In this document: positions 1 to 15,614 of the stretch, one piece after another
Layout: each line of letters opens with the position of its first letter
Numbering within the stretch: the first letter of the stretch is position 1
DNA from: Caulobacter sp.
GTDB lineage: Bacteria > Pseudomonadota > Alphaproteobacteria > Caulobacterales > Caulobacteraceae
Assembly: GCA_017745235.1 (NCBI GenBank)
Contig: JAGHZU010000006.1
Coordinates: 124,001 to 188,000, forward strand
DNA length: 64,000 nt
Direction: 5' to 3'
Translations under genes and position numbers: made by a program
The notes under the pieces: generated by a model
The model's database searches: none
The model's input: only the letters and a program-made list of their open reading frames with translations
Told to the model about the DNA's origin: nothing

Positions 1-34
1 GGACGTAACGGCAAACGTCATTCAGCTTGGGCAT
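1..34 (-). CDS. DUF4387-family protein, 5' fragment (MPKLNDVCRYV...), runs off the window edge
   Basis: Reverse complement of 1-34 reads ATGCCCAAGCTGAATGACGTTTGCCGTTACGTC; N-terminus typical of DUF4387 proteins, which accompany AtuA/DUF1446 genes; overlaps the upstream stop. Confidence 0.65.
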   Translation of the reverse strand, partial: MPKLNDVCRYV

Positions 35-1421
35 GTTCGCGCGCTCCAGTGGTTAGGGCCAGGGGCAGAATGGTCCTGCGCACCAGTTCATGGCCGTCGG
101 TCGTCTCGACGACGTGGTTGAGAACGAAAGCGTAGGTTCGCCCTAGTTCGATTTCCGCCGGAGAGAATGGGAAGCCGTAGCTGGGCAACTCCTTGTCGCG
201 GCGCATCGGGAAGTGGAAGAAATAGGGATTGCAGATCTTGGCGATGCGCAGGGCCAGTTCCTTCGTCTCGGCCGTCGCCACGAGGAGCAGTCCGATCTCG
301 CGGGTCGGGAAGCCATCGGTGACCGGCAGGCCCAGGACCGCGTTCCAGCCATAGGGTCGCAGCGAGATGTCGAACTCGCCAGCCGCGTCGCCCAGCACGG
401 CCTTGACACGACCGACCAGGGTCGCGTGCATGTCGGCCAGGAACTTGTCCAAGGCGGCCAGCACCTGGGGATCGGTGATGCCAACCAGCATGATCGACTG
501 GAACGGGCCGTTGGCCGCGCCCTCCAGCTTCATGGTGTAGGGCTTTTCAATGAAGCGCGAGCCGCTCACCCGCACGATCCGATCGTCTTTCGGTTCGTAG
601 CGCGCCTGGCTGACATCGAGCACCCCGCCCGGCTCATGCAGCAGGTAGGGATCGCTGTTCTCGTAGAGCATGTGGGCCGAAACGCTGTATGGGGTGCAAC
701 GGTTGGTGGCGCTGAGCGGCTCGATCTCGAAGGCGTCGGCTCCGACCCGGATCACCACACCACCCTCGAACGGCGTGATCGTGCATAGGCCTCCGCATTC
801 GGCGATCTTGCCCGCGTGCCAGGCCGGACCAACGCCCGCGCCTCGCATGATCGGCACGGCGGCGATCACGGCGGTGTCGGTCGTGCGGCCGCCCAGCACG
901 ATATCAGCTCCCGCCTCGAGGGCCGCGATGTAGGGCTCGGGACCCATCAAGGCGACAACGTGCTCACAGGACTTGAGCGTATCTTCGGTAAGCGCTCCCA
1001 AGGGCGCCAGCGGCAAGACCCGGCCCTCGGCCAACCGGTCGCGGATCACCGACTTCTCCTGCTCCGAATAGAGCATGGCGAGGGTCGGGGTCAGGTTCAG
1101 TTCCTGGCAAATCTCCAGCACGATATCGCGGGTCCAGTCGACGGCCATGTCGCAGCCGGACGTCCCGCAGGACCCGACCAGTAGCGGCACGCCCCACTTG
1201 GCCTGGGCCGCCACGAGCAGCTTCAGGTCGCTCTTGACCGCGTCGCGGCTGTATTTGGAAAGGCCGGTGGCCAAGGCGGCGGGGCCGCTGTCGGTCGATC
1301 CGGCGTCCATGGCCATGGCGTGGGCGCCGGCGGCCAGGCCGGCTTCGAGGTGCTCGAACTTGATGCCCGCGCCCAAAGCGCCCACGGGCACGACGACGAC
1401 GGTGGGGTTGTCACTGTTCAA
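18..1421 (-). CDS. Acyclic terpene utilization AtuA family protein (DUF1446)
   Basis: ORF 18..1670; conserved part starts at TTG 1421 (LNSDNPTVVVVPVGALGAGIKFEHLEAGLAAGAHAMAMDAGSTDSGP...), overlapping the transporter stop codon. Confidence 0.8.
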   Translation of the reverse strand: MNSDNPTVVVVPVGALGAGIKFEHLEAGLAAGAHAMAMDAGSTDSGPAALATGLSKYSRDAVKSDLKLLVAAQAKWGVPLLVGSCGTSGCDMAVDWTRDIVLEICQELNLTPTLAMLYSEQEKSVIRDRLAEGRVLPLAPLGALTEDTLKSCEHVVALMGPEPYIAALEAGADIVLGGRTTDTAVIAAVPIMRGAGVGPAWHAGKIAECGGLCTITPFEGGVVIRVGADAFEIEPLSATNRCTPYSVSAHMLYENSDPYLLHEPGGVLDVSQARYEPKDDRIVRVSGSRFIEKPYTMKLEGAANGPFQSIMLVGITDPQVLAALDKFLADMHATLVGRVKAVLGDAAGEFDISLRPYGWNAVLGLPVTDGFPTREIGLLLVATAETKELALRIAKICNPYFFHFPMRRDKELPSYGFPFSPAEIELGRTYAFVLNHVVETTDGHELVRRTILPLALTTGAREHAQAE

Positions 1422-2766
1422 TGGACGATCCTTGGACGTGAGGGAGAGGCCGGCCCGAGGCCGAAAAGGGAACGGCCCCGGTAAGAACGGCGGCGACGAC
1501 CAGCAGCGCGGCGAGGGCGGCGGCCCATTTGAGCCCGAAGCGCTGCATGGCTCCGACATCCACGTCGAGCATGCCGGCAACCAGGTAGACCGCCGCGACC
1601 AGGGGGCTGAGCGCGTGAATGTTCTGGCCCAGCAGGCAGGCGCGGCCGATCTCGACGGGCGAGACGCCATAGTGCGAGGCGGCTTCGGCGAGGACGGGGA
1701 CGATGCCGAAGTAGTAGGCGTCGTTGGACATCACGAAGGTGAGCGGGCCGCTGGCGACGGCCGTGATCAGAGCCAGGTGACGGCCCATCGACGGCGGCAC
1801 GATGTCGACGAAGCTGGCCCCCATCGCCTTGACCATGCCGGTGCCGTCGAGGATGCCGGTGAACACGGCCGCCGCGAAGACCAGGAGGATGATCGGCAGG
1901 ACATTGGCCCCGTGGGCCGCGATCCGCAGGCGTTGAACCCCGATCTGGGGGTAGTTCAGGGCCAAGGCAATCACCAGGCCGATCATGAAGATCACCGGCA
2001 TCGGCAGGATGTGCATTACGGCGGCGGCGATGACGGCCAAGGTGATGATCAGGTTGGGCCAGAACAGCTTGGGCCGGGCGAGATCGGCGGCTTCGTCGCG
2101 CAGGCCGCCGAACCCGTCGGAGGGCGTGAGTTCGGTGACGACGCCTAGCCGGCGAAGCTCCTTGCCGCCCAGATACCAGGCCAGGACCAGAACTCCGACG
2201 CAGCCGATGATCATAGCCGGGATCAGCGGCAGGAAGAGGTCGTTGATCTCCACACGCAGGACGCTGGCCACGCGTGGCATGGGGCCGCCCCAAGGCGCGA
2301 TGTTGATGATGCTGTTGGCCGCGCCCAGCAGCGTGGCCAGGATGAGCGGGTTCATGCCCAGGCGGCGATAGATCGGCAGGAAGGCCGTGATCGTGACCAG
2401 GGCCGTCGTGGCGCCGTCGCCATCCAGGGAGACCAGGATCGCCACCAGCGCGGTGCCGATCGCGACCTTGCGCGGATCGCCGCCGACGGCCTCGACGACC
2501 TTGCGCACCATAGGGTCGAACAGACCCGCGTCGATCATGACGCCGAAGTAGAGGACGGCGAACAGCAGAACCACGGCGATGGGCGCGAGCGTCACGACGC
2601 CCTTCATGATCATGCCGCCCACCTGGCCGCCGAACCCGGCGCATACGGCCACGGCGATCGGTACGGCGATCAAGGCGACCACGGCCGAGGCGCGCTTGCT
2701 CATGATCAACGCCATGAAGACGATGACCATGCCAAAGCCCAGGCCGGCTAACAGCGGCTGGCTCAT
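1411..2766 (-). CDS. CitMHS family citrate/tricarboxylate:cation symporter
   Basis: 451 aa polytopic membrane protein with CitMHS-type sequence (DGDGATTALVTITAFLPIYRRLGMNPL). Confidence 0.85.
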   Translation of the reverse strand: MSQPLLAGLGFGMVIVFMALIMSKRASAVVALIAVPIAVAVCAGFGGQVGGMIMKGVVTLAPIAVVLLFAVLYFGVMIDAGLFDPMVRKVVEAVGGDPRKVAIGTALVAILVSLDGDGATTALVTITAFLPIYRRLGMNPLILATLLGAANSIINIAPWGGPMPRVASVLRVEINDLFLPLIPAMIIGCVGVLVLAWYLGGKELRRLGVVTELTPSDGFGGLRDEAADLARPKLFWPNLIITLAVIAAAVMHILPMPVIFMIGLVIALALNYPQIGVQRLRIAAHGANVLPIILLVFAAAVFTGILDGTGMVKAMGASFVDIVPPSMGRHLALITAVASGPLTFVMSNDAYYFGIVPVLAEAASHYGVSPVEIGRACLLGQNIHALSPLVAAVYLVAGMLDVDVGAMQRFGLKWAAALAALLVVAAVLTGAVPFSASGRPLPHVQGSSIEQ

Positions 2767-3728
2767 GCCGAAGCCTTCTTCGCAAAGCCGTAGAGGCGCT
2801 CAGGATTGTCGACCAGGATCCGCCAGCGCGTAGCCTCGTCGCCGGCCCAGGCGCCGAGGAGGTCGAAGAGCCTGGCGTCGTCCGGCGGAACCTTCTCGGT
2901 GGCGTGCGGCCAGTCACTGCCCCACACCAGACGCTCTGGCGCCTCGGACACAAAGGCCTGGGCGATGCGGGTGGCGTCCGGATAGTCCGGCGGGCCCTTT
3001 TCGGTGTTGAGGTATGCCCCCGTGAGCTTCACCCAAGCCTTTTCCTTGGCCATCAACCTGCTGATGACCACGAACGCCGGATGGTCGGGGCCTTGTGCGG
3101 GCGGCAGCCGTCCCATGTGATCGAAGACGATCGGACACGGCAGCCGCGAGAGTATGTCGGCGGCGTCGACGATCTGATCGCCCAAGGCGTGGATCTGGAC
3201 ATGCCAGCCCAGGTCGGCGATGCGCCGGGCCAGCGGTTCCACCATGTCCAGGGTCGTGAAGGCGTCCGCGGGATTCCAGACGCTGAAGCGCAATCCCCGA
3301 ATGCCGCCCGCATCGAGACGGCGAAGCTCGGTTTGGTCGACATCCGGCGTGACGACGCCGACGCCGCGCCCGTTCGGCCCCAGCTGTCGCAGGGCGTCCA
3401 GGAGGCAGGCATGGTCGACGCCGTGAATCTTGGTCTGGACAATCACGGCGCGCGAAACGCCCAGACGTCGCTGGAGCTTCCGATAGTCCTGGAACGTCGC
3501 GCCCCCGAACTGCTTCGGGAAATCGGGCCGAAAGCGAGGATCGGCGATGTGCAGGTGGGCGTCGCAAGCGCCGGCCGGCGCCTTAGCTTTGGGCGGTTCG
3601 GTTCCCGCCGAGTGCGGAACGTCGGTGGCTTCACCGGCGAGCGACGAGGTCGCGGCCGCGCCAAGGCCGATGGAAGACATGGCTTGGAAAAGCTTGCGTC
3701 GGGTCAAGGTCATGGGTCGCCAATTCAA
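2763..3728 (-). CDS. Amidohydrolase family protein (TIM-barrel, 2-pyrone-4,6-dicarboxylate hydrolase-like) with Tat-like leader
   Basis: CDAHLHIADPRF, VFDHMGRLPP and LVWGSDWPHATEK motifs; N-terminal TRRKLFQAM twin-arginine-like segment. Confidence 0.85.
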   Translation of the reverse strand: MNWRPMTLTRRKLFQAMSSIGLGAAATSSLAGEATDVPHSAGTEPPKAKAPAGACDAHLHIADPRFRPDFPKQFGGATFQDYRKLQRRLGVSRAVIVQTKIHGVDHACLLDALRQLGPNGRGVGVVTPDVDQTELRRLDAGGIRGLRFSVWNPADAFTTLDMVEPLARRIADLGWHVQIHALGDQIVDAADILSRLPCPIVFDHMGRLPPAQGPDHPAFVVISRLMAKEKAWVKLTGAYLNTEKGPPDYPDATRIAQAFVSEAPERLVWGSDWPHATEKVPPDDARLFDLLGAWAGDEATRWRILVDNPERLYGFAKKASA

Positions 3729-3773: not shown

Positions 3774-6700
3774 TTAGAAGTGGGCCTTGGCCGAAACGTA
3801 GAAGCGCCGTCCCGCAAGGTCGTAGGTGTAAAGGTCCGACCGCGTCAGCCCGATCAGGCTGTCGTTCAGCACGGGCGGTTCCTTGTCGGTCAGGTTCACC
3901 GCCCCGACCCTCAGCTCTAGGGCGTCATTGACCGCCCAGGCGACGTCCAGGTCGAAATAGCTGACGCTCGGCACGCCGTGGGCGACGCCGCCCGTTCCAA
4001 CGTTGTTGGCGTTGTCCATCGCACCGATGTAGCGCCACTTCAGACCGGACTTGACCGGACCGATCCGCCAGCCGGCGTTGACGCTGCCCTTCCACTCCGG
4101 ATGGGCCGTGGCGAAGAAGTCGACCTGCGTGTTGCCGATCGTGCCGGCATATTCGAGCTTGGGGCTGGTCGGCAGGGTCTGGATCTGGAAGGTGTCGAGA
4201 TAGTTGATCACAACGCTCAGACTGAACGTCCCCGCCTTGGAGCCAAGCCCGGCCGCTTTCAACGGCACGGACCAGTCGGCCTGGAAATCGACGCCTGAGC
4301 TCGAATAGCCGCCCAGGTTCAGCAATGGATTGCCTATGTTGACGGCCTGGCCGGTCGAAGGGTCGCGGGTGATCAGGGCGCAATAGTAGTTGCTGTTGGT
4401 CAGGCTCGGGTTCGCGACCGTATTGAAGCACTGGGTTGCGGCGACCGTGTTGGTCACCTGGCCGATCGCGCCATCCAATTTGATCTTGTAGTAGTCGACC
4501 GAGGCGGTCAGACGCGACAGCCACTCGCTTTGGAAGGGCGACTTCAGCACCAATCCGACCGAATAGGTGTCCGAAACCTCGGGCTTCAGCCCAGTGTTGC
4601 CCTGGGTCGTGTAAGGTGTGCGACTGACGGTATTGGTGAAGCTGTCGATCACCGCGCTGGGAACGCCCTGGGCCAGGCAAAGGGCGCGGACCTGTGCGGC
4701 GATCGACGAACTGGCGGAACGATAGGCCCCGCGTACATCGCACGGATCACCCGAACCGACAGGGCCTGGCGTGCCTAGCGCGGTCAGACCGTTGGCGGCT
4801 GCGGCGTAGAGGTCGCCGACGCTGGGCGCGCGCACGGCCCGGGCGTATCCTCCCCGCACCGTGACGACGTCGTTGACCTTCCAGGAGCCGTCGGCCTTGT
4901 AGGTGTCTACCCCTCCGACCGTGTCGTAGTCGGAATACCGGTAGCCAAGATCGAGCGAAACCTCCTTGGCCAAGGGTAGGTCCCGCAGAACGGGAACCAG
5001 AAGCTCGCCGAACACTTCGCGCACGCTCGCCTCACCGCGGGACGGCTGGATCGGCAGGTAGTTGGCCAACTCGCCGGTCTGGATCAGCGCATCGGGGACG
5101 TAGTCGTAGGAATTGCTGCGATAGTCCGCCCCAATCGCGAAGCGCACTTCTCCGGCCGGCAGGGTGAGCAGTCGGCCCTGGGCCGAGCCCTCGACGATCT
5201 TCTGTTCGAGGGTCGTGGTGTTGCGGGCGGTGCGCCGGATGTAGGACACGCAGTTGGCCGAGAGACTGTCGATGCGGTTGAAGTCGTAGCCGCCTTCGCA
5301 CAGGCTGCGCCCGCCATCGGCGGCGTTGGCCAATCGCTGCAGCGCCGTGGTGCTGGGGAAGTTGATCTCCGATTGCAGCAGCTCGGTGCGCCCGTAGCTG
5401 CCATAGATGTTCCAGGTCAGGTCCATCGGCTCCATGCGCCCTTCGGCGCCGATGGTCAGTTGATACACGTTGTAGCGGTTCTCTTCGGCGCGGCCGCCGA
5501 CGGGCGTGATGATCTGGGCGATGTTGAAGGGCGCGGTCGGGTTGGGCCGCGAAGCGAGGATCTGGGCCAGATCCGGCGAAATGAACGGATTGCTGACCGG
5601 GATCGTTAGCGGCGCGCTCGATACCGACCCGACGACCACGGGATTGGCCCGGGTGGTCACGGTGTAGTTGGTGAAGAGCCCTTCGGCGAAGACCGAGACC
5701 TTGTCGTTGAGCGCGTAGTCAGCGTGGCCAAACATCGAGTAGCGTTCCAGCGGGACCTGGGCGAGGAAATAGTCCCCGGTCGCGGCCAGAACGGTGTTGC
5801 TGTAGATGGTCTGGAGCGTGCTCTGCGGGCTGCGGAAATTCACCGCGCCGGCGTTCAGGAAGAGTGAGCCATCGGGATTGAGCGACAAGGTCGCGGTGCG
5901 GCCGACCGTCCCAGCGGCGACGCCGTAGCGGCCAAAGACGGTGTTGATCGCCGCCTGGGTCGGCAGGTTCGTCGCGGCGGCGGTGATCAGGCCGCCAGGC
6001 GAATTCGACGAGAAGGCTTGGCCGCGCAAATAGTCCCGGTCGCGAAACGCGATCGAGTTGCGGTTGGCGTAGCTGAGTGAGAGGTAGGCGTTGCCGTGAT
6101 CGTCGGCGAAATCGGAGCCGATCGTTAGGGCCGCGCTCTGGGCTGTCCCATCGCCACGGCCCGTCTGGCCCATGTTCAGATCGATCCCGATCCCCGTGAA
6201 GTGTCTCTTCAGCTTCAGATTGACGACGCCGGCGACAGCGTCTGAACCGTAGGCTGCCGACGCGCCGCCCGTGATGACCTCGACATTGTCGATCAGGGTG
6301 CTTGGGATGACGTTCAGGTCGACCGTGCCGTCGTTGCCCGAGGGTTGCATGCGACGCCCATTGACCAGGACCAATGTGCGTTGCTGCCCCAAGCCCCGCA
6401 GGTTGATGCTCGCCTGTCCCGCCCGCGATATCAGGCTCGCCTGCGATCCCGCCGAAGCGGCGACCTGAGGCAGTTGGTTGAGGCTTGTTTCCAGGGTCGA
6501 GGCGCCCGTCGCGGCGATCGTCTCGGCGTTCACCGTGGTGATCGGCGTATGGGCGGTGTAGTCGCGCCGCGCGATCCGGGAGCCGGTCACGACGACCTCT
6601 TCCACCTGAACCGAGCTTTGGTCAGTTGGCGATTGTGTCTGGGCGAAGACCTGAGGCGCCCCCATCGAAAGACAAGCTCCCAAGGCGTAGACGGCTGTCG

Positions 6701-6812
6701 TGGTGGCGACTCGCATGATTTTCCTCCCCTGGACGGCGTTGTTCGCCGACACGTCTGTTGAGGAAACGATAGAAAAAGGGCGCATCCGGTCAATCTTGAC
6801 GCGGTCCGTCAA
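3774..6812 (-). CDS. TonB-dependent receptor
   Basis: Plug motifs VVVTGSRIARRDY, NLRGLGQQRTLVLVNGRRM, GGASAAYGSDAVAGVVNLKLK; C-terminal aromatic (RRFYVSAKAHF). Confidence 0.95.
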   Translation of the reverse strand: MTDRVKIDRMRPFSIVSSTDVSANNAVQGRKIMRVATTTAVYALGACLSMGAPQVFAQTQSPTDQSSVQVEEVVVTGSRIARRDYTAHTPITTVNAETIAATGASTLETSLNQLPQVAASAGSQASLISRAGQASINLRGLGQQRTLVLVNGRRMQPSGNDGTVDLNVIPSTLIDNVEVITGGASAAYGSDAVAGVVNLKLKRHFTGIGIDLNMGQTGRGDGTAQSAALTIGSDFADDHGNAYLSLSYANRNSIAFRDRDYLRGQAFSSNSPGGLITAAATNLPTQAAINTVFGRYGVAAGTVGRTATLSLNPDGSLFLNAGAVNFRSPQSTLQTIYSNTVLAATGDYFLAQVPLERYSMFGHADYALNDKVSVFAEGLFTNYTVTTRANPVVVGSVSSAPLTIPVSNPFISPDLAQILASRPNPTAPFNIAQIITPVGGRAEENRYNVYQLTIGAEGRMEPMDLTWNIYGSYGRTELLQSEINFPSTTALQRLANAADGGRSLCEGGYDFNRIDSLSANCVSYIRRTARNTTTLEQKIVEGSAQGRLLTLPAGEVRFAIGADYRSNSYDYVPDALIQTGELANYLPIQPSRGEASVREVFGELLVPVLRDLPLAKEVSLDLGYRYSDYDTVGGVDTYKADGSWKVNDVVTVRGGYARAVRAPSVGDLYAAAANGLTALGTPGPVGSGDPCDVRGAYRSASSSIAAQVRALCLAQGVPSAVIDSFTNTVSRTPYTTQGNTGLKPEVSDTYSVGLVLKSPFQSEWLSRLTASVDYYKIKLDGAIGQVTNTVAATQCFNTVANPSLTNSNYYCALITRDPSTGQAVNIGNPLLNLGGYSSSGVDFQADWSVPLKAAGLGSKAGTFSLSVVINYLDTFQIQTLPTSPKLEYAGTIGNTQVDFFATAHPEWKGSVNAGWRIGPVKSGLKWRYIGAMDNANNVGTGGVAHGVPSVSYFDLDVAWAVNDALELRVGAVNLTDKEPPVLNDSLIGLTRSDLYTYDLAGRRFYVSAKAHF

Positions 6813-6870
6813 CTAGCCTGAAACCTCGACCCCCGATGTGCAATCCGCTGACGGGAAAACGTGATTGGAT

Positions 6871-6969
6871 TCAAATAAATTTATTGATTATATTGGGATA
6901 TTTTCCAAATATCTGACAAATTCGTTTCCACGAAAATCAGGCGACTTTTTTGCCAGATTTGGGCCAAAT
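6871..6969. promoter_or_regulatory. AT-rich divergent regulatory region with multiple inverted repeats
   Basis: TCAAATAAATTTATTGA (6871-6887), GATATTT-TCC-AAATATC (6897-6913), TTCGT-TTCC-ACGAA (6921-6934), ATTTGG-G-CCAAAT (6957-6969). Confidence 0.55.
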
Positions 6970-7021
6970 AGGTTGATCGCCTAGGCATTGACGCAGTGAA
7001 TCAATATAATCTCGGACTGAT

Positions 7022-8206
7022 ATGGATGACGACCTCTACCTGACTGCGGCGGAAGCCGCGGCGATCCTGGGCGTCGAGCCCGCGACGCTCTACGCCTATG
7101 TCAGCCGAAAAAAGCTTCGCTCCCTGGCGACGCCGGGTTCACAGAAGCGCCGCTACTTGCGATCGGACGTCCTGGCCCTGGCCGCCAAGGGCAAGCCCTC
7201 CTCTGACCACACGCTCTTGGCCGGCGAGACGGCGATCACGCTGCTGACCGAAGAGGGCACCTACTACCGGGGCCAGAGCGTGATCGCATTGGCCGAAACA
7301 GAATCAGTGGAGTCGATCGCGGGCCTCCTTTGGCAAGCCGATCCCGAAGAGATCTTCTCGGCGCGCCTGCCGAAACCCGCGCCGGACCAGGACGCGATCC
7401 TCGCCAGCCTCGCGGCGATGCCCAGGTCGGATCGCGTTATGGCCCTGCTTCCCGTTCTCGAGCGCGCCAATCCCATGGCGTTCGATCTCTCGCCGTCCGG
7501 CTTCACTCAAGCCGGGGCGGATATGTTGCGCTGGCTGACCGCGCTCTATTTCGATCAGCCGCGACCATCAGCCGACCCCATCCATCAGGTCGTGGCGCGG
7601 GCCACGGGATCGACGGACGCCGTCGCCGACCTGGTGCGGCGCGCGATGATCCTCGTCGCCGATCAACAGTTTGGCGACACGACCCGGGCGGTTCGCGCTG
7701 CGGCGATCACAGGGGTCACCCCCTACGGGATAGCCATCGTCGGCCTTGTGGTAGGGGGCGGGCAACTGATCCGGTTTAACCGGATCGACACCGTGCGGCG
7801 CTTCGTCCTCGAAGTGGTGACGTCGGCGCATCCGGAAGAGGCGGTGATCAGTCGCGTTCGCACCGGCGAAAAAGTCCCCGGCTTTGAACCGTTGACACAC
7901 CATCGAAAGGGCGACGTTCGCGCCGACGCGCTGATGCGCGCCTGCGAGCGAGTATTCAATGGTGATCCCGATTTCGAACGCCTGCGGCGAGCCCTGACAC
8001 TGGCGAGCGAGCTCACGAGGCGAACCCCCGGCTTCGTCATTCCCCTCATCTTCCTCGGGCACAGACTTGGCGTTCCCGGCAACGAGCTGGCCGTGGCGAC
8101 AATCGGTCGCGCGATTGGATGGATCGCTCACGCACAGGAAGAAATGCAGCGATCCCCCGCACGCCCGAAAGCGGCCTATGTTGGAGCACTTCCGCGCCCC
8201 GAGTGA
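7022..8206 (+). CDS. Citrate synthase-family protein with N-terminal helix-turn-helix domain (putative regulator)
   Basis: N-term YLTAAEAAAILGVEPATLYAYVSRKKLRS (MerR/excisionase-like HTH); C-term RAIGWIAHAQEEMQRSPARPKAAYVG is a citrate synthase signature. Confidence 0.85.
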   Translation: MDDDLYLTAAEAAAILGVEPATLYAYVSRKKLRSLATPGSQKRRYLRSDVLALAAKGKPSSDHTLLAGETAITLLTEEGTYYRGQSVIALAETESVESIAGLLWQADPEEIFSARLPKPAPDQDAILASLAAMPRSDRVMALLPVLERANPMAFDLSPSGFTQAGADMLRWLTALYFDQPRPSADPIHQVVARATGSTDAVADLVRRAMILVADQQFGDTTRAVRAAAITGVTPYGIAIVGLVVGGGQLIRFNRIDTVRRFVLEVVTSAHPEEAVISRVRTGEKVPGFEPLTHHRKGDVRADALMRACERVFNGDPDFERLRRALTLASELTRRTPGFVIPLIFLGHRLGVPGNELAVATIGRAIGWIAHAQEEMQRSPARPKAAYVGALPRPE

Positions 8207-8322
8207 GGCGCTCCGCCATCTCGCTCAGAGCCATATGAGTCACATTTCGTGTTCACAGGATCGATGTTGCTAGCGCCCCCGGTCGCCGCCAGGAAGCAGC
8301 CCTTCCGGAGTTCGGAGATGAG

Positions 8323-8550
8323 TCACGAAGTACGCTTGCCGGGGTCTGGGCGGTATCCGGCTGGATCAGCGATCCACCGATTGATCGCGGACTCATGCCA
8401 TCCCGCACCGTGGACGCTGATCGGGACCTGGCAGGGGAAGGTACCCTCGCCGATTTTCCGATAGAGGGTCGAGCGGCTCAGGCCAGTGCGTGCCAGCACG
8501 GTCTTGAGGCGGATGATGCGGTCGAGATCGGCCATCGTTTCAAGCTCCAC
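8323..8550 (-). CDS. AlpA family phage-type transcriptional regulator
   Basis: RIIRLKTVLARTGLSRSTLYRKIGEGTFPCQVPIS...AINRWI. Confidence 0.85.
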   Translation of the reverse strand: MELETMADLDRIIRLKTVLARTGLSRSTLYRKIGEGTFPCQVPISVHGAGWHESAINRWIADPAGYRPDPGKRTS

Positions 8551-8747
8551 AGACTGGGATCTGAAGGCATTCGATGGGCCAGAATTGGATTGCTTGTCTC
8601 TAGCGGCAAGGCCTCGCGGGGCCAGATCGTACTCCAGGAAACAAAGACAGGCTCTAGGCGCCGCTAGCGAAGGTGAGAACGTACCTTCGTGAAGCTGGCT
8701 GCGCCCCTGGCGCGGCGAATTCCGTCCTAGGCCCCGGACTAGCTCCG

Positions 8748-8984
8748 CTATTTTTTCAGGCGCACACCCGGGCCGCCAGCTTCGTCAGCCGACAAAAACG
8801 TCACCCCGGCATTTTCCAACGACTGGCGTACTGCATCGACATTGGCGGCGGAACTCCGGCCAGGACCGGCCGCACCCTCCATGCGAACAATGGTCGGCAG
8901 GGAGACACCTGAGGCCGCCACCAGTTGCGGCTGGCTCCAGCCCAAGAGAGCGCGAGCCGCCTTGATCTGTTCGGCGGTAATCAT
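8748..8984 (-). CDS. Small XRE-family helix-turn-helix regulator
   Basis: ITAEQIKAARALLGWSQPQLVAASGVSLPTIVRMEG. Confidence 0.85.
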   Translation of the reverse strand: MITAEQIKAARALLGWSQPQLVAASGVSLPTIVRMEGAAGPGRSSAANVDAVRQSLENAGVTFLSADEAGGPGVRLKK

Positions 8985-8989
8985 GGGGC

Positions 8990-9063
8990 GATAATTTTAT
9001 TATCGTATGTGATCATTTTATAATTGACCTCACCGGAATGCCGAGTGATAATAAAATTGTCAC
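8990..9063. promoter_or_regulatory. Putative operator pair for the adjacent XRE regulator
   Basis: GATAAT-TTT-ATTATC at 8990-9004 and GTGATAAT-AAA-ATTGTCAC at 9045-9063, with a degenerate third copy near 9010-9026. Confidence 0.6.
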
Positions 9064-9085
9064 CCATGATTATAGGGTCCAGGCT

Positions 9086-9583
9086 ATGGAGTCACGTCGA
9101 AAGGCGGGGCGTGCAGCTGCGCGCCTTCACGAACCTTCTAGGCGAGCAATCATAGTTGGCAGCTCTGCTGCTTGCGCGACTGTGGCTAACCCAGCGCCCC
9201 ATGAGTCAACCGAGCCCTCGATCAACATCTGTCGTCGGTGGCTGACCATCGACGCGGAGCAGCGGCGGCTTCAGTTAGAATGGGGCGCGCTGGAAGGCTG
9301 GCTGATCACCCACCGCAGTTGGTACAAAATCACGCCCGCTCAGCAGGCCGAAATCCCCGAAGGCGCTAGGCTCTCTGAAATCGACGCACGGCTCGATGTG
9401 CTGGAGGTCGAGGGACACGCCCTCCTCAAGGCCATGCGGCCAAGGCCAGCCAAGAGCGTCGAGGCCATCATCGCCAACCTGTCATTGGCGGCGCGCCTGA
9501 TCTTCGTGGAAGACCACCCCGAAGCGCATGGCTTGATCACGCGCGCCGTCCGCGACCTCACCGCCTTCTCCGGTGGAAATTGA
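9086..9583 (+). CDS. Hypothetical protein with twin-arginine-like N-terminus (paralog of 10372..10866)
   Basis: ORF 9038..9583; start moved to in-frame ATG 9086 because the annotated start lies within the palindromic operator. Confidence 0.55.
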   Translation: MESRRKAGRAAARLHEPSRRAIIVGSSAACATVANPAPHESTEPSINICRRWLTIDAEQRRLQLEWGALEGWLITHRSWYKITPAQQAEIPEGARLSEIDARLDVLEVEGHALLKAMRPRPAKSVEAIIANLSLAARLIFVEDHPEAHGLITRAVRDLTAFSGGN

Positions 9584-11549: not shown

Positions 11550-11990
11550 ATGGAGACTTTCGTGACCGATACCTCTGAAGCCCGCACGCTCAATGTCGTC
11601 GATCTTCACGTCGGAGGCCGCGTGCGCATGCGCCGCAAGTTGCTGAACATCACCCAGGAGCAGCTTGCCGACGCGCTGAAGCTCACCTTCCAGCAGGTTC
11701 AAAAGTACGAACGCGGCGCCAACCGCGTCAGCGCCAGTAAGCTCTACGAAATCGCCAAGACGCTTCAGGTCCCCGTGTCATTCTTCTTCGACGGTCTGGC
11801 TGACCCGATGACCAACGAGGTCGATGAGGCCGGCGCCGCTGCCGAGCGCGTCGTCACTGAGTTCCTCAACACGCCCGAAGGCCTGGAACTAGCCGAAATG
11901 TTCCCGAAGATCGGCCGGGGCCGCGTCCGTCGGCAGGTCCTCGACCTCGTCCGCGCCATGGCCGACGATGAGAGCGCCGACAAGGCCTGA
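11550..11990 (+). CDS. XRE family transcriptional regulator
   Basis: GGRVRMRRKLLNITQEQLADALKLTFQQVQKYERGANRVSASKLYEIAKTLQVPVSFFFDG. Confidence 0.9.
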   Translation: METFVTDTSEARTLNVVDLHVGGRVRMRRKLLNITQEQLADALKLTFQQVQKYERGANRVSASKLYEIAKTLQVPVSFFFDGLADPMTNEVDEAGAAAERVVTEFLNTPEGLELAEMFPKIGRGRVRRQVLDLVRAMADDESADKA

Positions 11991-12681: not shown

Positions 12682-12720
12682 GGAGGGCGCGCTTATACGT
12701 CGTGCCGACGTGCGCTCAGG
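12682..12720. other. oriT: Putative origin of transfer (oriT), RSF1010/pTi-type nic region plus inverted repeat
   Basis: GGAGGGCGCGCTTATACGTCG followed by ACGTCG-TGC-CGACGT hairpin (12697-12711), between divergent traCD and traA. Confidence 0.75.
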
Positions 12721-12740
12721 GGCGTAGGTGGTCTGTCGCC

Positions 12741-15614
12741 ATGGCGATCTACCACTTCAGCGTCAAAGTCATCAGCCGCGCCACCGGGGCCAGCGCCGTC
12801 GCCTCGGCCGCTTATCGCTCCGCCAGCCGGCTGCACGACGAGCGGTTGGACCGCGACCACGACTTCACCAACAAGAGCGGCGTCGTCCACTCGGAGATCA
12901 TGCTGCCGGAGGACGCGCCCGCGCAGCTCGCCGACCGGGCCACGCTGTGGAACACCGTCGAGGCCGGCGAAAAGCGCAAGGACGCCCAGCTCTCCCGCGA
13001 GGTCGAGTTCGCCATTCCCCGCGAGATGGACCAGGCACAGGGCGTCGAACTGGCCCGCGACTTCGTCCAGCGCGAAATGGTCGATCGCGGCATGGTCGCG
13101 GATCTCAATGTGCATTGGGACATCGGCGAAGATGGTCTGGCCAAGCCCCACGCCCACGTCATGCTGTCGATGCGGGAAGTTAGCGAAGAGGGCTTCGGCG
13201 CCAAGGTCCGCGACTGGAACCGCACCGAGCTGGTCGAGCATTGGCGCGAGGCCTGGGCTGATCACGTCAATGAGCGGCTGGCGCAACTCGATATCGACGC
13301 GCGGATCGACTGCCGCAGCCTGGAAGACCAGGGCATTGACCTGGAGCCGCAGCACAAGATCGGCCCGGCGGCTGGGCGCATGGCCGGCGAAGGCGTCGAG
13401 ACCGAGCGGCTGGAAGATCATCACCGCATCGCCCGCGAGAACGGCGAGAAGATCATCGCCGATCCGCGCATCGCGCTGGACGCCATCACCCACCACCAGG
13501 CGACCTTCACCCGCTACGACCTGGCGAAGTTCATCCACCGCCATTCGGACGGCAAGGAGCAGTTCGACCGGGCGATGAGCGCGGTGCAGGCCTCGCCCGA
13601 GATGGTGGCGCTGGGCCAGGACGGGCGCGGCCAGGACCGCTTCACCAGCCGCGACATGATCGCCGTCGAGGACCGGCTGCATCACGCCAGCGAGGTGATG
13701 GCGCAGCGCCGGGCGCACGGCGTCAGTGAGCTTGAACAACGGCGGGCATTGGCGCGCGCCGAGCAACGCGGCCTTGTTCTCTCCGGCGAGCAGCAGGTGG
13801 CGTTCGAGCATGTCACCGAGGGGCGGGATCTTGGCGTCGTCGTCGGCTATGCCGGCACGGGTAAGTCGGCGCTTCTGGGTGTCGCTCGCGAGGCTTGGGA
13901 GGACGCCGGCTATCGCGTCCAGGGCCTGGCGCTGTCGGGCATCGCCGCCGAGAACCTGGAGAGCGGATCGGGCATCGCCTCTCGCACCATCGCCAGCTTG
14001 GAACACCAATGGGCGAAAGACCGCGAGCTGCTGGATGCGCGCGACGTGCTGGTGATCGACGAGGCCGGCATGATCGGCTCGCGGCAGATGGAGCGGCTGT
14101 TGTCGGCCGCCGAGAAGGCCGGGGCCAAGGTGGTGCTGGTCGGCGATCCCGAGCAGCTCCAGGCCATTGAGGCCGGCGCGGCGTTCCGGTCGATCGCTGA
14201 GCGTCATTCCCACGTCGAGATCACCCAGGTTCGACGGCAGCATGAGGACTGGCAGCGCGACGCCACGCGGCATCTGGCGACTGGTCGGACGGGCGAGGCG
14301 CTGGCGGCGTACGAGGCGCGCGGCATGGTCCACGTCGCCGAGACCCGCGACCAGGCACGCGAGAATCTGGTCGAGCGCTGGGATCGTGAGCGCGTGGCCG
14401 AGCCCGGCAGAAGCCGGATCATCCTCACCCACACCAATGACGAGGTGCGCGAGCTGAATCTGACTGCCCGCGAGCGGCTGCGCCAGGCCGGCGTCTTGGG
14501 TGAGGACGTGACGGTGGAGGCCGAGCGCGGCGAGCGTTCGTTCGCGACCGGCGATCGGCTGATGTTCCTGAAGAACGATCGCGGACTGGGCGTGAAGAAC
14601 GGCATGCTCGGCGAGATCGAGCAGGTGTCGCCGACGCAGATGACGGTGCGGCTCGATGCCGGGCGTCCCGACGCGGAGCGCTCGGTCGTCTTCGACCTGA
14701 AAGACTACGCCCAGGTCGATCACGGATATGCCGCCACCATCCACAAGAGCCAGGGCGTCACTGTGGATCGCGCCCATGTGCTGGCGACGCCGGGCATGGA
14801 TCGTCACGGCGCTTACGTCGCCCTCTCTCGCCATCGCCACAGCGTGCAGATCCACTATGGGCGCGACGAGTTCGAGGATCTCGGCAAGCTGACGCGCGTG
14901 CTGTCGCGTGAGCGGGCCAAGGACATGGCCAGCGACTTCGCCGAGCGGCGTGACATCCACGTGCCGTGGTCGATGCGGGCGAAGCAACCGCCGCAGCGTC
15001 GGCGCGGGATGTTCGACGGGTTCAAGCCTGCAAGCCCGACGCGGCAGCCGGAGGCGCCCACGCGGGAGGTCGCTCAGCTCGACCAGCACCGCGCAATGGA
15101 GCGCCACGCGCGCGCCGCGGCCGATGTTATGCGGATGAACGACCGCGGCTTGCCGGTGCTCGCCCACCAGCGGCGAGCGTTGGAGGAGGCGCGCGAGGGT
15201 CTGGGGAGGATCGGTCCGCATGCGGTCAAGGATCTGGAGCGGGCATATGTCCGCGAGCCCAGCCTAGCCACTGAGACGGCTTCTGGCCGAACGCGGCGGG
15301 CAATCAGAGTCCTTCAGCTTGAAGCGGAGGTTCGGGCCGATCCACGCCTTCGGGCCGATCGCTTCGTCCAGCGCTGGCAGGGCCTGGAGCGGCAGCGATC
15401 AACCCTGCACCGCGAGGGCGATATGACCGGAGCCCGCCAGGTCAAGGATCGCATGGGCGCCATGGCCAAGGGCCTGGAGCGAGACCCGCAGGTGGAGTCG
15501 CTGCTGCGCGGGCGGCGCTCCGAGCTTGGTCTGCCTTCGAACATGGGACGCAGCGTCGGGCAGGGGCTGACGGAATACCTCGGCATCGGCCGTGGGCGCG
15601 GGCTTGGCATCTAG
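12741..15614 (+). CDS. traA: Ti-type conjugative transfer relaxase TraA (MobA/MobL relaxase + RecD-like helicase)
   Basis: MAIYHFSVKVISRATGASAVASAAYRSASRL; HAHVMLSMR; Walker A GYAGTGKSALL; VIDEAGM; HGYAATIHKSQGVT. Confidence 0.93.
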   Translation: MAIYHFSVKVISRATGASAVASAAYRSASRLHDERLDRDHDFTNKSGVVHSEIMLPEDAPAQLADRATLWNTVEAGEKRKDAQLSREVEFAIPREMDQAQGVELARDFVQREMVDRGMVADLNVHWDIGEDGLAKPHAHVMLSMREVSEEGFGAKVRDWNRTELVEHWREAWADHVNERLAQLDIDARIDCRSLEDQGIDLEPQHKIGPAAGRMAGEGVETERLEDHHRIARENGEKIIADPRIALDAITHHQATFTRYDLAKFIHRHSDGKEQFDRAMSAVQASPEMVALGQDGRGQDRFTSRDMIAVEDRLHHASEVMAQRRAHGVSELEQRRALARAEQRGLVLSGEQQVAFEHVTEGRDLGVVVGYAGTGKSALLGVAREAWEDAGYRVQGLALSGIAAENLESGSGIASRTIASLEHQWAKDRELLDARDVLVIDEAGMIGSRQMERLLSAAEKAGAKVVLVGDPEQLQAIEAGAAFRSIAERHSHVEITQVRRQHEDWQRDATRHLATGRTGEALAAYEARGMVHVAETRDQARENLVERWDRERVAEPGRSRIILTHTNDEVRELNLTARERLRQAGVLGEDVTVEAERGERSFATGDRLMFLKNDRGLGVKNGMLGEIEQVSPTQMTVRLDAGRPDAERSVVFDLKDYAQVDHGYAATIHKSQGVTVDRAHVLATPGMDRHGAYVALSRHRHSVQIHYGRDEFEDLGKLTRVLSRERAKDMASDFAERRDIHVPWSMRAKQPPQRRRGMFDGFKPASPTRQPEAPTREVAQLDQHRAMERHARAAADVMRMNDRGLPVLAHQRRALEEAREGLGRIGPHAVKDLERAYVREPSLATETASGRTRRAIRVLQLEAEVRADPRLRADRFVQRWQGLERQRSTLHREGDMTGARQVKDRMGAMAKGLERDPQVESLLRGRRSELGLPSNMGRSVGQGLTEYLGIGRGRGLGI

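Follow-up and report, generated by a model that had tools for sequence, protein, structure and literature searches.

Predicted one-component regulator with a citrate synthase pseudoenzyme as its proposed sensor and a predicted operator common to the HTH-citrate synthase family

Citrate synthases are dimers that close upon the binding of oxaloacetate or citrate. For Escherichia coli GltA, we take His264, His305, and Asp362 to be the catalytic residues and R314, R387, and R407 to be the arginines for the substrate (citrate or oxaloacetate). Among described transcription factors, the MocR/GabR regulators combine a winged HTH (wHTH) with an aminotransferase fold (PMC4944035). In Caulobacter crescentus, citB and citC are adjacent, and E. 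coli gltA was complemented by CitB, whereas CitC failed to do so (PMC7083601). The glutamate mutase/methylaspartate ammonia-lyase/mesaconase cluster of E. coli O157:H7 includes a DUF1446 gene (PMC4682846), a context that, by analogy, may hint at branched carboxylate substrates for AtuA operons. We found no description of HTH-citrate synthase (HTH-CS) regulators in the open-access literature, and database records mostly label HTH-CS proteins as 'citrate synthase family protein' or as citrate or 2-methylcitrate synthase.

Here, we analyzed one such protein, encoded in a window of Caulobacter DNA, by which we mean the whole stretch of 64 kb that was examined. The gene and its domains are the following:

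7022..8206, + strand: predicted HTH-citrate synthase pseudoenzyme regulator, 394 aa (P0001; ORF, domain, alignment, and model)
7037..7189, + strand: HTH_17 DNA-binding domain, residues 6-56 (Pfam E 3e-10, above the cut-off)
7217..8152, + strand: citrate synthase-fold domain, residues 66-377 (Pfam Citrate_synt E 8e-21, above the cut-off)

The initial annotation had described an N-terminal HTH joined to a citrate synthase fold, and this was borne out by Pfam, in which HTH_17 and Citrate_synt were both above their cut-offs, the score for PF00285 being 75 bits. The fold signature that it had called intact was also found, with the C-terminal GWxAH and RP.A.Y.G present as in citrate synthases. The HTH_17 domain has a TLYAYVSR core, which a comparison of sequences indicated to be conserved throughout the HTH-CS family. 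The AlphaFold model, for which an alignment of 54 sequences was the input, was confident (pLDDT 93.1, pTM 0.84), and its best PDB matches by Foldseek were citrate and 2-methylcitrate synthases (1a59, 3o8j, and 3hwk). The CS domain is proposed to serve the protein as both sensor and dimerisation domain.

In a tree from which the catalytic columns were left out, the protein fell in a monophyletic clade of 21 sequences (SH-aLRT 100) from Caulobacter, Brevundimonas, Pseudomonas, Paraburkholderia, Cupriavidus, and other genera, and catalytic loss was placed as one change. Residues were mapped onto E. coli GltA as the reference for these 21 sequences and 87 other HTH-CS proteins, by a MAFFT alignment of more than 100 rows including GltA and, as a cross-check, by a separate hhalign profile-profile alignment. 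The positions concerned are the following:

7760..7777, + strand: GQLIRF, residues 247-252, in place of GP.HGG; catalytic His264 lost (MAFFT and hhalign)
7880..7924, + strand: GFEPLTHHRKGDVRA, residues 287-301; His305 replaced by Pro, and R300, corresponding to R314, kept (MAFFT and hhalign)
8027..8041, + strand: PGFVI, residues 336-340; catalytic Asp362 lost (MAFFT and hhalign)
8108..8110, + strand: R363, equivalent of GltA R387, citrate-binding, kept in 21/21 of the clade (alignment)
8162..8164, + strand: R381, equivalent of GltA R407, citrate-binding, kept in 19/21 of the clade (alignment)

GQLIRFN, GFEPLTHHRKGD, and TPGFVI had been read initially as lacking the catalytic His, His, and Asp, and all three readings proved right by both MAFFT and hhalign. 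An alignment that would restore these residues was sought by sequence and by profile, and neither brought them back, hhalign placing Pro opposite His305. In the clade, His264 was kept in 0/21, His305 in 4/21 (the Pseudomonas/Stutzerimonas members only), and Asp362 in 0/21, and the arginines R314, R387, and R407 in 21/21, 21/21, and 19/21, respectively. The corresponding values for the 87 other HTH-CS proteins were 87 for His264, 84 for His305, and 85 for Asp362, with R314, R387, and R407 all kept in 87/87. The His305 position was Ser, Tyr, or Phe in the gapless alignment of basal clade members (Ser or Phe in L058, L060, and L061), and the result is thus independent of the placement of gaps in the window protein. 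Separately, His305 was Gln in three otherwise intact HTH-CS proteins (L084, L096, and L106), which, judged from their sequences, may mean that activity has been lost beyond the main clade as well.

An ordinary citrate synthase was rejected because of the missing catalytic residues. A trigger enzyme, namely, an HTH-bearing working enzyme that is citrate synthase-like or a lyase of altered chemistry, is very unlikely as well. Such an enzyme would be in keeping with the retained CS fold and substrate arginines, and the closest HTH-CS proteins outside the clade do have the full catalytic set; however, none of the 21 clade members has His264 or Asp362 and 17 of them lack His305, the separate profile alignment restores no catalytic residue, and the genome itself already has GltA and a second CS. 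The window protein is better described as a predicted DNA-binding switch, whose proposed CS sensor lacks the catalytic residues and keeps the arginines gripping citrate.

Another oxaloacetate ligand, His229, is replaced by Gln in the window protein, so that the affinity for or the identity of the ligand may differ. Together with the loss of the catalytic residues, this change would also suit a DNA-binding regulator in which the CS domain merely dimerises and the signal is another one or none. We regard that as unlikely, given that the three citrate-binding arginines have been selectively retained over deep divergence and that the dN/dS of the CS domain is about 0.05-0.10. The HTH had a similarly low ratio, and pairwise values for the whole gene were 0.05-0.09 where computable, indicating that the regulator genes are maintained; because orthologues in independent genomes share the losses at such low dN/dS, decay or chance does not account for them. 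Orthologues were sparse, occurring in 8/390 Caulobacteraceae genomes in a sample of one genome per species, and also in Paraburkholderia, Pseudomonas/Stutzerimonas, Cupriavidus, Sphingomonas, Novosphingobium, Nitrospirillum, and Bradyrhizobium. Paraburkholderia xenovorans LB400 (L079) and Caulobacter sp. RHG1 (L070) are among the strains that have one. A single-sequence scan of the genome contigs with P0001 gave no match; an alignment-based query did find relatives.

The genes on the other side of the divergent region are the following:

3774..6716, - strand: TonB-dependent receptor, leading the divergent operon, with the corrected start ATG 6716
2763..3728, - strand: Amidohydrolase_2 family protein, lactonase-like
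1411..2766, - strand: CitMHS citrate:proton symporter family (TIGR00784, 512 bits)
18..1430, - strand: AtuA (DUF1446) family protein, exact start uncertain
G000:C134 about 123729-124034: DUF4387 gene after AtuA, just beyond the window

The divergent TonB/amidohydrolase/CitMHS/AtuA operon that had been noted at the outset is real by ORF and domain evidence, and the DUF4387 gene, a family on which we found nothing in the open-access literature, then follows AtuA. The likely start of the TonB receptor is ATG 6716, which stands behind a ribosome-binding site, AGGGGAGGA, and opens a signal peptide. The TTG start at 6812 was rejected as over-extended; the ORF so read covers the predicted operator described below. 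AtuA was present in 19/20 clade loci, mostly with DUF4387, and in 0/67 loci of other HTH-CS genes (Fisher P about 7e-19, on sequence counts). In L076, the one clade locus that departs from this, a CoA-transferase III and a CitE-like lyase are present. The transporters differ among clade loci, being CitMHS, MFS, or tripartite tricarboxylate binding proteins, such that CitMHS is not found in all of them, and the Pseudomonas loci add MmgE/PrpD and 2-hydroxyacid dehydrogenase. These neighborhoods point to di- or tricarboxylate metabolism.

The module is flanked by a phage-type integrase on the one hand and a MobA/MobL-TraA relaxase with AlpA-like and Cro-like regulators on the other (window 8323-8550, - strand; 11550-11990, + strand; 12702-15614, + strand; and G000:C134 about 113322-114521), suggesting that an integrative mobile element may carry the regulator/AtuA module. 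An integrase is likewise found near the orthologue at L055, and the Cupriavidus orthologue is on a conjugative plasmid. The plasmid of Cupriavidus oxalaticus (L061) carries two diverged pseudoenzyme HTH-CS regulators (7965-9182 and 14345-15589), each with its own operator match, and two AtuA genes.

A sequence, GTCAATCTTGAC-N7-GTCAA(TAT), is common to the divergent regions of the clade. Palindrome searches conducted per locus had yielded mostly scattered chance matches, the operator being visible only by comparing loci. It was defined from the loci of first sighting and then followed by leave-one-out analysis, in other HTH-CS branches, and genome-wide. Two sites were predicted in the window:

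6789..6812, + strand: main predicted operator, GTCAATCTTGACGCGGTCCGTCAA, perfect family consensus (comparison of loci and matrix)
6988..7011, no strand assigned: partial second predicted operator, TTGAC-N7-ATCAATAT, with 2/3 half-sites

The pattern RTCAATnTTGAY-N7-RTCAA was matched at 6789-6812 with zero mismatches, and the same position was the best matrix match in the 64 kb (17.8 versus 8.9; P about 1e-7 per position). It overlaps the predicted -35 (TTGACC, 6793-6788) of the TonB operon. The partial site, whose TTGAC-N7-ATCAATAT is at 6988-7007, overlaps the predicted regulator promoter (6982-7010); its last half-site stops 18 bp short of the regulator start, which is the commonest distance in the genus. 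The predicted promoters at both sites have spacers of 16-18 nt. Because both promoters are overlapped by sites, they are the predicted targets, which suggests repression of the operon together with autorepression. As a consequence of the corrected TonB start, the fragment 6813-7021, which the initial annotation had put forward for a gel shift, would miss the main predicted operator. An inverted repeat, GATTATATTG/CAATATAATC, was rejected as the operator, its right arm belonging to the partial site and a -10-like sequence.

A ligand-dependent activator, acting by MerR-like remodelling of the promoter, is a tentative possibility; it is a variant of the regulator proposed here and is not exclusive of it. 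The resemblance of the window HTH to the MerR/BldC group and the position of the predicted operator over the -35 region would favor activation, but the spacers are predicted to be short compared with the long MerR spacer, and autorepression is suggested by the site close to the start of the regulator.

For the leave-one-out analysis, the weight matrix was built each time without the tested lineage, and about 34,000 positions were ranked. The upstream site took the first rank in 12/16 loci of the divergent layout, the window being one of them. In the remaining four it came second, behind a site in a different intergenic region on the downstream side of the regulator (for L078, the region separating the genes for a hydroxyacid dehydrogenase and a TonB receptor). 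The non-divergent operon of L077 had its best site 32 bp upstream of the AtuA gene, and the clade locus L071 gave a weak operator match only. Furthermore, a matrix made from the clade alone placed the motif among the top three positions, mostly first, at 64/67 other HTH-CS loci, and the palindrome RTCAAnnTTGAH was found within 150 bp upstream in 63/67 of the non-clade loci against an expected 0.019 per 150 bp, as taken from its density in the 67 loci themselves.

At the genome level, GTCAATCTTGACN7GTCAA with at most two mismatches occurred twice in the 4.9 Mb of the window's own genome, once per HTH-CS gene. A search of 71 Caulobacter genomes with RTCAATNTTGAYN7RTCAA gave 65 sites, the reversed-pattern control giving 0. 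Each of the 53 sites that were checkable from listed gene coordinates lay a short way upstream of an HTH-CS gene; the distance to its start was 12-42 bp, except for the site of the window, at 210 bp. This distribution bears on whether the motif could instead be part of a promoter or be bound by some other factor, with the HTH protein not acting there. TTGAC is indeed like a -35 box, and the two sites each overlap a predicted promoter; nevertheless, such a reading is extremely improbable for a 24-bp pattern that recurs at this frequency, adjoins HTH-CS genes wherever this can be checked, and is conserved across the HTH-CS loci of Proteobacteria, Acidobacteria, Chloroflexi, and Deinococcota. A few matches to the stricter operator lie away from known HTH-CS genes (G083:C1:1598574, G092:C28:13896, G099:C1:2028995, and others), and these could be extra regulon members or chance.

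In many phyla, the HTH-CS gene is divergent from one metabolic gene. Of the 67 non-clade loci, 33 had a plain citrate synthase as the immediate divergent neighbor, 15 had a class III CoA-transferase, and 4 had a pyruvate carboxyltransferase, as counted with a limited set of reference proteins outside which neighbors were left unclassified; the same pattern was seen in annotated plasmid records. The loci beside CoA-transferase genes (L089-L136) and pyruvate carboxyltransferase genes (L109, L125, L129, and L142) share the operator with the clade, and these subfamilies are predicted to represent further regulons. The genome of the window has one such pair (L024), in which an HTH-CS gene (G000:C75:2768-3898, - strand) and a CS gene (C75:3983-5083, + strand) have a predicted operator at 3914-3937 between them. 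The HTH-CS protein of this pair is catalytically intact, and its partner CS has Glu at the catalytic Asp (NVEF). The pair is probably the citC/citB of Caulobacter, with CitC as the HTH-bearing member.

We consider it highly probable that the window protein is a one-component regulator whose dimer binds the operator and whose arginines sense a carboxylate, the ligand resetting the divergent promoter and its own. The reuse of an enzyme fold as a one-component sensor, suggested when the gene was first read, gains support from the residue pattern, the monophyly, the operon linkage, and the conserved operator. In the proposed mechanism, the citrate synthase-fold dimer would carry two N-terminal HTH domains and bind GTCAATCTTGAC-N7-GTCAA at 6789-6812, with weaker binding to the partial site at 6988-7011, thereby covering two promoters, that of the divergent TonB receptor/amidohydrolase/CitMHS/AtuA/DUF4387 operon and that of the regulator gene. 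The loss of the catalytic His/His/Asp would abolish synthesis, and the arginine cluster that was kept would still bind a di- or tricarboxylate imported and degraded by the operon. Closure of the domains driven by this ligand, as in true citrate synthases, may then reposition the HTHs, such that the promoters are released or reset. The DNA binding, the action as a dimer, the identity of the ligand, and the sign of regulation are what we infer for the window protein; repression relieved by the ligand is the most likely mode.

The main new result is a predicted operator at the level of the whole HTH-CS family. Given this shared operator, the family as a whole looks like one of transcription factors that spans phyla. 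It seems reasonably likely that HTH-CS proteins form such a family, so far undescribed, in which intact members would report the status of oxaloacetate/acyl-CoA or citrate to the divergent CS, CoA-transferase, or pyruvate carboxyltransferase promoters, with the AtuA-linked clade as a pure carboxylate-sensing pseudoenzyme. If this is true, a reused citrate synthase would link citrate, oxaloacetate, or acyl-CoA directly to gene expression in many bacteria, and many genes now annotated as citrate synthase may in fact encode regulators, so that metabolic reconstructions would be distorted. This would also offer a possible reason for the failure of Caulobacter CitC as a citrate synthase (PMC7083601). 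Moreover, the pseudoenzyme clade could show how an enzyme turns into a sensor, and the regulator family may provide a handle on the AtuA/DUF4387 pathway.

Compared with known systems, the window protein has in common with citrate/2-methylcitrate synthases (PF00285; E. coli GltA and PrpC) the fold, the substrate arginines, GWxAH, and RP.A.Y.G, but it differs from them in lacking the catalytic His/His/Asp and in its N-terminal HTH, with about 18% identity to GltA. The MocR/GabR regulators are the closest in concept, as a metabolic enzyme fold there serves a DNA-binding regulator as its sensor, although with a PLP fold type I and a winged HTH, in both of which the window protein differs; having HTH_17 and Citrate_synt domains only, it is not a member of that group. 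Nor is it a MerR protein, the MerR match of 19.6 bits being below the Pfam cut-off of 28.2. Its HTH shows weak sequence similarity to the small BldC/MerR-like proteins (PDB 6ama and 6amk), but BldC chains, at about 70 aa, lack a sensor domain. Its operon shares the AtuA and DUF4387 gene pair with other AtuA/DUF1446 operons. Other HTH-CS proteins (e.g., G000:C75:2768-3898) have the same domain order and operator and are likewise divergent from one metabolic target gene, but keep His/His/Asp and have as partners CS, CoA-transferase III, or pyruvate carboxyltransferase rather than AtuA. The clade thus appears to be the pseudoenzyme branch of a widespread and apparently undescribed regulator family with a common recognition site in several phyla.
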